Positions 44,140-48,191 of a stretch of DNA of 64,000 nucleotides are shown here, one piece after another; the stretch's first letter is position 1; each line of letters starts with the position of its first letter. This DNA is from Candidatus Micrarchaeum acidiphilum ARMAN-2 (GTDB taxonomy: Archaea; Micrarchaeota; Micrarchaeia; Micrarchaeales; Micrarchaeaceae). The stretch covers positions 1 through 64,000 of the forward strand of contig GG697241.1 of assembly GCA_009387755.1 (NCBI GenBank), read 5' to 3'. A program made the position numbers and the translations under genes. A model generated the notes under the pieces. That model was not told the origin of the DNA, did not search any database, and saw nothing but the letters and a program-made list of their open reading frames with translations.

Positions 44140-45435
44140 TTATGAGAGCTTGGAAAAGAAGCGCTTCATTCCGCGGTTGTTTTTTAGCATGTTGAAAGAT
44201 TTTTTCATCTTGTTGAAATCTGATAGCAGCGCGCGCACGTCCTTTTCCGTTGTGCCGCTTCCCCTGGCGACCCTTTCCGCGCGGCTTGGGTCGTGGAGCA
44301 GCTTTTCGTTCTGCCTTTCCTCCTTGGTCATTGACGATATTATCACTTTGTATTTGTTGAGCTTCGATTCGCCCTCTTCGACCAGCTCCTTTGGAACGTC
44401 CGGAGCGCCTAGCATGCCAAACACATTTTTCAGCGGGCCCATCTTGTTCAATGCCTTGAGCTGCGCGTAGAACGTTTCAAAATCGAGCTTTTCTACGTCT
44501 ATCTCGTCTTCGCTTAGATTGGCTTCCTTGACCGCCGCGCTTACATGTTCTATGAGTTTTTCTATGTTTGGTACTCCAAGCAGTTCGCCGATAAATTTTT
44601 CGGAATCGAACGGCTCTATATTGGAGATCTTCTCTCCAGTACCTATGAACATTACTGGTGCGTGCGCCGCATTTGCTGCACTCAGTGCGCCTCCGCCCTT
44701 CGCAGAGCCGTCCATTTTTGTTACTATTACTCCGCTGATTGATATTGCTTTTGCGAATTCGCGGGCCTGCCTGCCGGCAACCTGGCCTATGTCTGCGCTA
44801 ACGACAAGTACCTTTTCTTCCGGGGCGAACGCATCAGATACCCTTTTGAGCTCCTCTACCAGGTTTGCGTCAAGAGCGCTTCTGCCGCTGGTATCGCAGA
44901 TTACAACGCCCTTGCCCTTCATAGCCTCCAATCCCGACTTCACTATTTTGACCGGATCTTTGCTGTCTTTGATTCCGAAAAACGCTACGTTTGCCTGCTT
45001 TGCCAGGGTTTCGAGCTGCTGGTAGGCGGCGGGGCGTGTGACATCGCAGCATATTACGCCGGCGCTTAGCCCCCTATCCTGGTAGTATTTCGCCAGCTTG
45101 GCAGCGGTTGTTGTCTTACCTGAACCGTAGAGTCCTGCCAGCAATATGCGTTTTTTGGATATCTGGGGCTCGTAGGTCTTGCCCATCAGCTTTGTCAGTT
45201 CTTCGTATACCATATTGGTTATGTATTCGCGCGGGTCTAGGCCTGGCGGAGGCTTGCTCTTTAGCGCCTGCTCCTGTATGCTTTTGGTGAATTCCGCAAC
45301 AAGGTTTACTTCAACGTCTGCCATAAGCAGGGTTTTCTGCAGCTCCTTAGAAAATTCGCGAATCGTGTTTACGTCTATTATAGTGGAACGTGAAATTTTT
45401 GCTATTGCCTGCCTTAGGCCTTCTCCGAAGTCCAT
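44140..45435 (-). CDS. srp54: Signal recognition particle protein SRP54
   Basis: 431 residues: N domain, GTPase G domain (LLAGLYGSGKTTTAAKLAKYY, VICDTSGRSA, VTKMDGSAKGG, FIGTGEKISNIEPF) and Met-rich M domain (MTKEERQNEKLLHDPSRAERVARGSGTTEKDVRALLSDFNKMKKSF) that binds SRP RNA helix 8 and signal sequences. Ends FNMLKNNRGMKRFFSKLS. Its RNA partner is at 18957-19220. ATG 45435. Co-directional with nothing close; divergent from the glycosyltransferase gene. Confidence 0.95.
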   Translation of the reverse strand: MDFGEGLRQAIAKISRSTIIDVNTIREFSKELQKTLLMADVEVNLVAEFTKSIQEQALKSKPPPGLDPREYITNMVYEELTKLMGKTYEPQISKKRILLAGLYGSGKTTTAAKLAKYYQDRGLSAGVICCDVTRPAAYQQLETLAKQANVAFFGIKDSKDPVKIVKSGLEAMKGKGVVICDTSGRSALDANLVEELKRVSDAFAPEEKVLVVSADIGQVAGRQAREFAKAISISGVIVTKMDGSAKGGGALSAANAAHAPVMFIGTGEKISNIEPFDSEKFIGELLGVPNIEKLIEHVSAAVKEANLSEDEIDVEKLDFETFYAQLKALNKMGPLKNVFGMLGAPDVPKELVEEGESKLNKYKVIISSMTKEERQNEKLLHDPSRAERVARGSGTTEKDVRALLSDFNKMKKSFNMLKNNRGMKRFFSKLS

Positions 45436-45522: not shown

Positions 45523-46662
45523 ATGGATATCGCAATAACACAGGCAAACCTTACCATGAAGGGTGGGGCCGAAAAGATAGTGCTCAAGATGGCTCAGCAC
45601 TACAAAGCCAAGATATACACCGCCGAATACGATAAGAACGCAACGTTTCCGGAATTTTCGGATCTTGATGTTGAGGTTATAGGTACCAAAGCCGCGGCCA
45701 AAATTTTACCGTACAGCAGGGCTACGCAAGGCCTCGATTATGGCATGTCTTTTTACAGGTTCGTAATCAAAGAGGACTATGACGTGATAAATGCCCACAT
45801 AGCGCCCAGCCATTGGATAAGGAACAGCAATGAACGCGTTGTATGGTATTGCCACACCCCGCTAAGAGAGCTATATGATCTTTACGCTTACAGGCAGAAA
45901 TTCAGGAAGGTGTGGAGCAGACCGGTTTACAAGGTAGGCGCATCATTTGTCAGGAAAATGGATTACGGAGTTGTAAAGAAAATAGAGTTCATATTTGCAA
46001 ACAGCGAAAATACCAGAGGCAGGATAAAGAAGTATTTCGGGAGAGATGATGCAGTGGTACTTAATGGCGCGGTAGATTATCAGAACTATTTGGATAGGGG
46101 CAATGACAAGTACTTCCTCTATCCAGCGCGTATCTCTCCAAACAAAAGGCAGGATTACGCAATAAGGGCTTTTGAAATATTTAGGAGGATTTCCAAATCC
46201 AAGGGCTACCGCCTAATCCTGGTCGGGCCTGTGTCGAAGGACAGCTTCTATCAGGAATACTATCGTAAGGTCATTGAGAGTTCCAGGGCGACGAAAGGAA
46301 TAGAGGTAATGACCGAGGTAAACGATAAAGAGCTTATTGACCTGTACTCTAGGTGCACTGCGGTTATTTATCCGCCGCTGAACGAGGATTACGGGCTGGT
46401 GCCGCTGGAGGCGATGGCGAGCAGAAAGCCGATAATCGCGGTTAACGAAGGCGGTCCGCGTGAGACGGTTGTAGACGGGAAAACAGGGTTTCTGACAGGT
46501 AGCGAAGAGGAGATGGCCAGGCGTATGGCAATGGTTGCCGAGAACGATGACCTGGCCGCAAAATTGGGTAGGGCGGGCCGCGCTCACGTCAAGAAAAATT
46601 ACTCATGGGACCGATTCTTCGAAAGTTTTGAAAAGGAAGCAAGAAAAGTAGCAAAAATGTAA
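45523..46662 (+). CDS. GT4-family glycosyltransferase
   Basis: 379 residues, GT-B fold. N-terminal domain [27 protein letters not shown] with the GGAE acceptor loop; C-terminal domain with [27 protein letters not shown], and the nucleotide-sugar site [37 protein letters not shown], where the Ex7E pair spans E and LEAM. Transfers sugars from UDP/GDP donors, probably to lipids, surface glycans or glycoproteins such as those encoded around 3.9 and 35.5 kb. No neighbouring glycan cluster. Confidence 0.88.
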   Translation: [379 protein letters not shown]

Positions 46663-46665
46663 TAT

Positions 46666-46923
46666 CTACTTTGCCGGAGGATTTATAGAAAGGACGTACT
46701 TTGAAAGCACCTTTGCCGCATATGCGAGCACCTTTTTTATGTTGGCCTCGGTGTTCGAGCCGGTGCATATCATTTTGCCATTTTTAAATAGTATTATGAC
46801 GGCCTTTGGTTCGGCTATCCTGAATATGGCGCCTGGAAACTGCTCTGGCTCATAGTCGACTGCTTTTACGTCCTTGGAAAGCGCGTAAAGGTCTATTGTT
46901 GCATGAAGATCCGCGCTTACCAC
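46666..46923 (-). CDS. TATA-binding-protein domain, single repeat with disrupted N-terminus
   Basis: 85 residues from GTG 46923, with the hallmark TBP text AVDYEPEQFPGAIFRIAEPKAVIILFKNGKMICTGSNTEANIKKVL split over one repeat. A normal TBP is about 180-190 residues with two such repeats; only one is present, most like the second. The frame continues upstream of GTG for 26 codons (PKINIQNIV precedes VSADL, as in TBPs) but contains no ATG/GTG/TTG. An ATG at 46988 in the neighbouring frame would connect to it by one extra A in the CCCAAAAGC run near 46972. So the gene is either frameshifted, mis-sequenced, or starts late. Two copies would need to dimerise to form a saddle. Confidence 0.8.
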   Translation of the reverse strand: MVSADLHATIDLYALSKDVKAVDYEPEQFPGAIFRIAEPKAVIILFKNGKMICTGSNTEANIKKVLAYAAKVLSKYVLSINPPAK

Positions 46924-47078
46924 TATATTCTGTATGTTTATTTTAGGTTCGGGTATATCTTGTGGACCTGTGCTTTTGGGTTTCTCATTTTTAGGCGTTT
47001 AACCACCGTAATAAAAATTACTAAATAAAATAGGGTAGAAAGGTATAAATACATGATAATCTGCGCGGTTGATATTAT

Positions 47079-48191
47079 ATGGAAAAGGAAATCGTTATAG
47101 TTGGGGCGGGCAGCGCCGGACTTATGCTTTCCATAGAACTAGCCAGGAGGGGCATACATTCCACAGTATACGAAAGAAAGCGCAGAGTAGACGATGGTGT
47201 AGAAAAGGCATCAGGCATACTATCCAAAAATGGCCTGGATAGGATGGAGCTTGAGTACAGAACTAGCATAATAAATGATCTTTACGGCGCAGACATATTC
47301 GCAGGCAATGAAAAACTGGCAGTTATGGCAAAATCGGTTGTGGCGTACGTAGTCGACAGAAAGAAATTCATAAATTTATTTTACAGCGCGGCAAAGGAGG
47401 CGGGGGTTGATGTGTTATTGGGCAGGGAATTGAACAGGGAAACGTTGGTAGACATGGCGGGTAGAGGCGATAAAATAATAGTCGGCGCGGATGGCGCGCT
47501 TTCACATGTGGCCAGCGCGTTCGGTTTTCCGCCTATTCACAGATTTGTACTCACATACAAAGCCGAATTTGATGGCGCATTAGTAGAAGACCCCAAGAAG
47601 GTTGGGGTCTACGTAGGGGAGAGGTATATAAAGGGTTTCTTTGGCTGGATGGTGCCCTATGGCAAAAGCATAGCCGAAGTCGGGATTGGCATAGACAGCA
47701 GCGCGAAGAAAAGCAGTGCGGTCGTTTTTGATTCGTTCTTGAAAAACAGCAGCATATCCAATATTATTTCTGGCTCTAGGAAGATAGCTGGACATGCGAG
47801 CATAATACCACTAGAGGTAAGGAAAAAAACAGTTTTGGGAAACGTGATGCTTTTAGGAGACGCTGCAGGTCAGGTAAAGGCCACCACGGGAGGAGGCATA
47901 ATATTCGGGATCCTCTGTGCCAAGATCGCAGCAGAATCGATAGCTAAAAAATTGGGCGGCAGAGAGCCGCTGGGCGAGTATGAGAGAAGATGGAGGGCGC
48001 TGTACGGAGCAGATTTAAAAATGCACAACATGATACACTCTTATTATTCGTTCTTAAATTCCATAGGCCCCAGAAACTCCGGTTATTTCATAAAATTTCT
48101 GAAGGCGCTTGGAGTTGGCGAATTCTTGAGCAAGCATGGGGATATGGACAGTCCGAAGGCCATGCTTAAGCGCGTATTTATAAGAAAGTAG
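47079..48191 (+). CDS. Geranylgeranyl reductase-family FAD flavoprotein
   Basis: 370 residues. The FAD-binding GAGSAGLMLSIELARRGI Rossmann loop is at the N-terminus, then the family motif GVGxGDAAG-like LLGDAAGQVKATTGGGIIFGI where FAD pyrophosphate and substrate meet, and YxWxFP-like FFGWMVPYGKSIAEVGIG in the substrate domain. In archaea such enzymes saturate the isoprenoid chains of membrane lipids (digeranylgeranylglycerophospholipid reductase) or of quinones. Alone in the region; convergent with the aminotransferase operon. Confidence 0.87.
   Translation: MEKEIVIVGAGSAGLMLSIELARRGIHSTVYERKRRVDDGVEKASGILSKNGLDRMELEYRTSIINDLYGADIFAGNEKLAVMAKSVVAYVVDRKKFINLFYSAAKEAGVDVLLGRELNRETLVDMAGRGDKIIVGADGALSHVASAFGFPPIHRFVLTYKAEFDGALVEDPKKVGVYVGERYIKGFFGWMVPYGKSIAEVGIGIDSSAKKSSAVVFDSFLKNSSISNIISGSRKIAGHASIIPLEVRKKTVLGNVMLLGDAAGQVKATTGGGIIFGILCAKIAAESIAKKLGGREPLGEYERRWRALYGADLKMHNMIHSYYSFLNSIGPRNSGYFIKFLKALGVGEFLSKHGDMDSPKAMLKRVFIRK

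Follow-up and report, generated by a model that had tools for sequence, protein, structure and literature searches.

A one-repeat TATA-binding protein with a probable ACG start in a Micrarchaeota archaeon that appears to make TBP as two half-size proteins

Introduction

Can a gene that encodes half a TATA-binding protein (TBP), and that seems to have no start codon, be a working gene? TBP in archaea and eukaryotes is described as a two-repeat, single-chain saddle (PMC7289017). A frame on the reverse strand of the window—the whole 64,000-nucleotide stretch of DNA analyzed here—encodes a single repeat, and an earlier note on this DNA had read it as a half-length TBP whose start was disrupted by a frameshift in a short run of A. 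Here we examine the frame, its start, and its counterparts among relatives, and we propose how a TBP delivered in two chains could work.

A complete TBP repeat

The gene, termed TBP-B (Table 1), encodes a product of 110 residues, TPKNEKPKSTGPQDIPEPKINIQNIVVSADLHATIDLYALSKDVKAVDYEPEQFPGAIFRIAEPKAVIILFKNGKMICTGSNTEANIKKVLAYAAKVLSKYVLSINPPAK, which ends at a TAG stop. The half-length TBP of the earlier note is borne out: the PF00352 model is covered once and from end to end (1–85 of 85, E 9.8e-26), and the phrases YEPEQFPG, EPKAV and GKMICTG are all unbroken. Compared with the Sulfolobus TBP structure 1mp9 (2.8e-40), both repeats of the known protein align onto one and the same region of TBP-B. 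AlphaFold, supplied with an alignment of 45 relatives, predicted a fold with a pLDDT of 90.1, and this is the fold used throughout; a prediction made with no alignment (pLDDT 42) was set aside. All 44 PDB matches of the predicted structure at E ≤ 0.001 were TBP structures or TBP-containing complexes, and the model typically superimposes on one half of a solved TBP saddle at 0.8–1.0 Å rmsd over about 81 residues.

The residues that matter for function are also in place, both in TBP-B and in a second one-repeat protein of the same genome, TBP-A. The two share the strand-1 Asn (in NIV), a Phe in EQFPG, a Phe in LLF or IILF, and the Thr of CTG—that is, one Asn, two intercalating Phe and one Thr that we take to be the DNA-contact positions of TBP structures—and both carry the EPEQFPG stirrup, presumably the C-terminal, TFB-binding one of canonical TBPs. 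By repeat sequence, repeat fold and DNA-contact residues TBP-B belongs among the TBPs, and it departs from the canonical two-repeat, single-chain architecture in having one repeat in 110 codons. TBP-B is a genuine, complete TBP repeat and no broken gene.

Table 1. Features of the TBP-B locus in the window, with TBP-A from elsewhere in the genome
Feature	Position	Strand	Basis
TBP-B, one-repeat TATA-binding protein CDS, 110 codons + TAG	46666..46998	-	translation, Pfam, AlphaFold, PDB match, family conservation
Single TBP repeat, PF00352 model positions 1-85	46696..46944	-	profile search
ACG, proposed TBP-B initiation codon	46996..46998	-	same codon at same position in 25 of 34 family members
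In-frame TAA abutting ACG on the upstream side	46999..47001	-	sequence
GGTGGT, Shine-Dalgarno-type hexamer, 3 nt before ACG	47002..47007	-	conserved hexamer in relatives
Internal GTG, first canonical in-frame start, judged unused	46921..46923	-	would remove conserved strand 1
Out-of-frame ATG, judged unused	46986..46988	-	own frame soon meets TAA; unused by relatives
Four-A run, judged intact	46974..46977	-	ACG start needs no frameshift
TATTTATA, TATA-box-like candidate promoter, ~46 nt before ACG	47044..47051	-	sequence only
Glycosyltransferase-like gene, TBP-B neighbor	45523..46662	+	found at 51 of 58 TBP-B loci
FAD-dependent oxidoreductase-like gene, TBP-B neighbor	47079..48191	+	found at 44 of 58 TBP-B loci
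SRP54 gene, TBP-B neighbor	44140..45435	-	found at 27 of 58 TBP-B loci; locus length limits the count
TBP-A, one-repeat TBP, 104-residue ORF, ATG start	G000:C5:30350-30664	-	TBP-model search

The start of TBP-B

The earlier note was right that no canonical start codon lies in frame upstream of the internal GTG, and the lack of any ATG, GTG or TTG ahead of the domain recurs across nine genomes (the window's own, G002, G006, G008, G019, G020, G021, G026 and G031). Around the start the window reads GGT GGT TAA ACG CCT AAA, and since the in-frame TAA abuts the ACG the TBP-B frame is unable to open any earlier. In the window's Micrarchaeota family (f1), 25 of the 34 genomes with a B gene have ACG at the Met position, the other nine having ATG there, or GTG in the case of G029. 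The sequence GGTG[AGT]T—which we take to complement the anti-Shine-Dalgarno end of archaeal 16S rRNA—precedes the ACG in 22 of these 25 genes, at a spacing of exactly 3 nt in 20 of them. A conserved non-AUG codon at the homologous start, together with a ribosome-binding site, is what marks out a non-AUG gene, and TBP-B has both. B genes of the sister family in the same order (f2) have ATG or TTG. Among relatives, G003, G005, G009 and G028 contain a downstream in-frame ATG that is a possible alternative start.

ACG is normally a very weak initiator. It makes up 20.5% of Thr codons in the long genes of the window, and 22 distinct ACG cases would arise from Thr codon usage with a chance of 7e-16 if they were independent, a calculation that ignores shared ancestry. 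Common ancestry makes the probability less telling, yet the tails that follow the ACG have diverged while the ACG itself has stayed. Nor does the codon appear to serve the lineage at large. Starts were screened in 305 conserved genes drawn from the TBP loci and the window, with overlap filtering against antisense shadow frames; 11 of the 25 rows flagged for having no canonical start before the conserved part were TBP-B, and the remainder were mostly shadow-like. As there were only two other credible sporadic non-canonical starts among the 305 genes, the ACG is peculiar to TBP-B. Judged by this conservation, TBP-B most likely initiates at ACG 46998, which would be why the frame has no ATG, GTG or TTG.

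Several individual loci are worth recording. SRP54 in G026 (L073) reads GGTGATGTT-CTG at its start, and the FAD oxidoreductase in G002 (L072) reads GGTGGTACC-ATC. At the TBP-B loci L164 and L166 the ACG position is occupied by ATA (GGTGTTTAA-ATA) and GCG (GGTGATTTT-GCG), respectively. The A gene of G018 (L085) has no canonical start at the expected place, where it reads GGTGTTTTTT-ACG-TCA.

Two other accounts of the start can be weighed against these data. The out-of-frame ATG does sit one base off, as the earlier note said, and its own frame soon reaches a stop; loss of a base from the A run might have removed the true ATG, or a programmed −1 shift at C CCA AAA might join this ATG to the TBP frame. 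We consider such decay, mis-sequencing or slippage very improbable. The ACG and Shine-Dalgarno sequence stand at the same place in relatives whose tails differ too much for one shared sequencing error, the domain is intact and uninterrupted by a stop, and relatives that do carry an ATG have it where the window has ACG. The out-of-frame ATG is not brought back into frame in any relative, and the conserved arrangement means that the A run has lost no base; what had looked like a disrupted start is most likely a conserved ACG start behind a strong Shine-Dalgarno sequence. A pseudogene or frameshifted gene was rejected as a candidate, relatives having the same start architecture and an intact domain. 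Initiation at the internal GTG, the first in-frame ATG, GTG or TTG, seems just as remote. It would give an 85-residue protein, perhaps a dominant-negative form or decoy, that loses strand 1 (PKINIQNIV) and its DNA-contacting Asn, a strand under clear protein-level conservation across B genes.

Within 46972–46988 of the window, C CCA AAA comes after the out-of-frame ATG. This is a −1 slippery heptamer of the classical type and would lead into the TBP frame, but it is not conserved in relatives, and we therefore take it as coincidence.

TBP genes of the genome and its relatives

The genome from which the window comes (1.01 Mb in 8 contigs, 96.6% complete) was searched with the TBP model to E 10. 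Two places were found, the window gene and TBP-A on contig C5, with no two-repeat TBP in this 96.6% complete genome even at that threshold. The earlier note, which suggested looking for a second TBP gene, had argued that a one-repeat TBP must homodimerize or else regulate a full TBP encoded elsewhere: the need to pair stands, while the full TBP falls away, the only other TBP being the one-repeat A. The Micrarchaeota archaeon of the window appears to make TBP as two separate half-size proteins.

One-repeat TBPs, which the note had also proposed to seek in relatives, turn out to be common. In a 60-genome search, nearly all f1 genomes carry both A and B, at separate places. Of 35 f1 genomes with a completeness of 88% or more, 33 gave two or more one-repeat TBP matches, one of these 33 having a two-repeat TBP besides that is a probable contaminant; a further genome gave a single match and another none. 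No two-repeat TBP was seen at the TBP-B locus in relatives. Most f2 genomes carry A only, with B present as well in a minority; in G039, assembled as one contig, a single one-repeat gene is the only TBP. Although the assemblies are mostly metagenomic, several single-contig genomes agree (the one-contig genomes of the sample include G009, G010, G025, G031 and G039). Of the 23 family groups in the class, 15 have one-repeat TBPs, and the remaining 8 have two-repeat TBPs of 186–218 aa. The carriers of one-repeat TBPs are Micrarchaeota, including Mancarchaeum and Micrarchaeaceae, and the TBPs of the Diapherotrites sample are two-repeat with one clear exception.

Position in the genome separates the two proteins. 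A genes, like single-copy one-repeat TBPs, adjoin L21e, DUF655 and RpoF, a locus that holds the two-repeat TBPs of other Micrarchaeota and of Diapherotrites; sharing it makes the A-type proteins positional orthologues of full TBP, still at the ancestral locus. TBP-B genes form a single clade (100/97) at a conserved locus of their own, distinct from that of A, which marks B as a later-born partner rather than a fragment of the ancestral gene.

A proposed two-chain saddle

How might such proteins serve in transcription? One repeat is unable to make a saddle, and the chains must therefore pair. Our preferred model, which we regard as probable, is that a saddle for the TATA box is assembled from two chains, A and B, and that B is synthesized from its conserved ACG behind a strong Shine-Dalgarno sequence, which would keep the output of B low. 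It is built on gene content, fold, conserved residues, synteny, and the conservation of the ACG and Shine-Dalgarno sequence. Two chains, likeliest one A and one B, would pair via their first strands, rebuilding the saddle that other archaea form from one two-repeat chain. The A-B saddle would then bind TATA boxes and recruit an ordinary two-cyclin TFB, and the weak ACG behind its strong Shine-Dalgarno sequence may hold B at a set, low level relative to A.

The partners that a working general TBP needs, TFB and TATA promoters, are present. The window's genome encodes one ordinary two-cyclin TFB, and of the 12 one-repeat relatives tested 11 have such a TFB as well. Upstream of genes in the f1 family, TATAAATA-type words are enriched. 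Promoter words of A-only and A+B families were also set side by side for signs of greater TATA-box symmetry, on small counts.

The main rival concerns which dimer does the general work. A-only genomes imply A-A homodimers, and an A-A dimer could equally be the working general factor in the window's organism, leaving B an accessory whose level is held down by the ACG and which forms A-B or B-B saddles at particular promoters or under particular conditions. We think this plausible but distinctly the less probable reading. It draws on the majority of f2 genomes and the many further Micrarchaeota families that manage with an A-type protein alone, on the standing of B as a later duplicate at a different locus, and on the way a weak start suits a minor partner. 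Against it, B is retained in nearly every reasonably complete f1 genome, and the f1 A proteins lie on a separate branch from f2 A (100/99, length 0.25), as would follow had A become dependent on B. Given this near-universal retention and the separate A branch, the organism of the window most likely works with A-B, as far as sequence comparison can tell.

A broader version of the A-B model is quite possible, though we hold it with less than even confidence. General transcription across Micrarchaeota would run on dimeric one-repeat TBPs, A-A where A is alone and A-B in the window's family, and the ACG of B would be a throttle setting the ratio of the two saddles and thereby steering promoter choice. 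If true, the ACG throttle would be a layer of control that no TBP is known to have.

Origin of the repeats

Two one-repeat genes in one genome also invite the idea that a canonical TBP was split, with A derived from its N-terminal half and B from its C-terminal half, and the QNIV motif of B is indeed typical for C-terminal repeats. The trees make this improbable. In a single-repeat tree, built from a short alignment (108 rows, 84 columns) and with long branches that meet, A falls with B (99/98), away from canonical N and C repeats, and a topology placing A with N and B with C is rejected at p 0.044. Genomes with A alone exist, moreover, and it is A, not B, that has kept the ancestral locus.

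The same tree gathers all Micrarchaeota and Diapherotrites repeats, whether first or second, into a single clade (98/97, branch 0.64) that excludes the canonical N and C repeats. One old N/C duplication as the source of all these repeats is rejected (AU p 0.007 for Diapherotrites with Micrarchaeota, p 0.003 for Diapherotrites alone), so that in this branch either the two repeats were homogenized or one of them disappeared and the other was duplicated anew. On the RpoB tree the one-repeat state forms no single clade (AU p 0.002) and at least three changes are needed. The origin of TBP is assumed to lie in duplication of the gene for a one-repeat prototype (PMC4910066); for the Micrarchaeota/Diapherotrites branch, repeated shifts from one state to the other contradict that picture of a single duplication.

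Relation to known systems

Canonical archaeal TBP (PF00352; 1mp9, 1pcz, 2z8u) has in common with A and B the repeat fold, the DNA-contact Asn, Phe, Phe and Thr, the EPEQFPG stirrup, and probably operation with TFB at TATA promoters. It differs in carrying two repeats per chain, where the window's organism has one per chain from separate genes, and its repeats stem from an ancient N/C duplication, while those of Micrarchaeota and Diapherotrites both descend from one repeat. The TBP paralogues of haloarchaea are known as full two-repeat proteins, whereas A and B each amount to half a TBP. What the haloarchaea, with their multiple TBP paralogues (PMC7289017), do share with the A/B system is more than one TBP per genome and the possibility of different factor combinations. 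One-domain TBP-like modules are known, for example the N-terminal domain of RNase HIII (PMC7289017), which resembles TBP-B in its single TBP-type domain but is no general transcription factor; the window protein matches RNase HIII (2d0a) in the PDB at E 0.24, versus 6e-8 for TBP itself.

For the start codon, the nearest likenesses are bacterial and chloroplast genes. The bacterial infC gene has a conserved AUU start and, like TBP-B, pairs a conserved weak start with a role in the expression machinery, as do chloroplast genes with conserved non-AUG starts (PMC9845219). Unlike these cases, TBP-B joins an ACG to a Shine-Dalgarno sequence in an archaeal transcription factor.

The half-size pair is apparently an undescribed rearrangement of a core transcription factor: in a literature search mostly outside subscription journals and preprints, no relevant publication on a one-repeat TBP or an ACG start in archaea was found. 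Living cells apparently use one-repeat TBPs, some as their sole TBP. This renders initiation from a symmetric saddle testable, and likewise the question of what fixes the direction of promoters, presumably TFB together with its upstream element. A second unexpected feature is the ACG conserved in a core factor of archaea, and it has a practical side, in that pipelines accepting only ATG, GTG and TTG will truncate or miss TBP-B. Cultivated Ca. Micrarchaeum harzensis (G031), with a chromosome of 989,838 bp (PMC8975820), appears to have A and B, including the ACG start, and makes such tests feasible.

Other TBP-like genes among relatives

A few further genes were met along the way. The Diapherotrites exception (L273, G140:C38:27624-27869) is a 90-aa one-repeat TBP beside L21e/DUF655, which suggests a further one-repeat case beyond Micrarchaeota. 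In family f7 (G073, G079, G082 and G097), outside f1 and f2, each genome has two or three A-like one-repeat TBPs, an independent expansion of paralogues. One f1 genome, G011, includes an 8.4-kb contig (C43, L159) with a canonical two-repeat TBP alongside transposase-like and MFS-transporter-like frames, probably contaminating DNA from another archaeon. At a contig end in G059 (C39, L020/L158) two A-type repeats are apparently fused in one frame, with the overlapping 90 nt identical; this could be a tandem duplication of very recent date or an error of assembly, and given the latter possibility it was left out as evidence. Lastly, a second and very divergent family of small one-domain TBP-like proteins (about 92–118 aa, 19–42 bits) occurs beside a normal TBP in Diapherotrites and a few Micrarchaeota, with members at G090:C12:19300-19539 and G060:C9:21028-21222 and in the Diapherotrites genomes G137, G138, G143, G144, G145, G148, G151, G154, G155 and G159.
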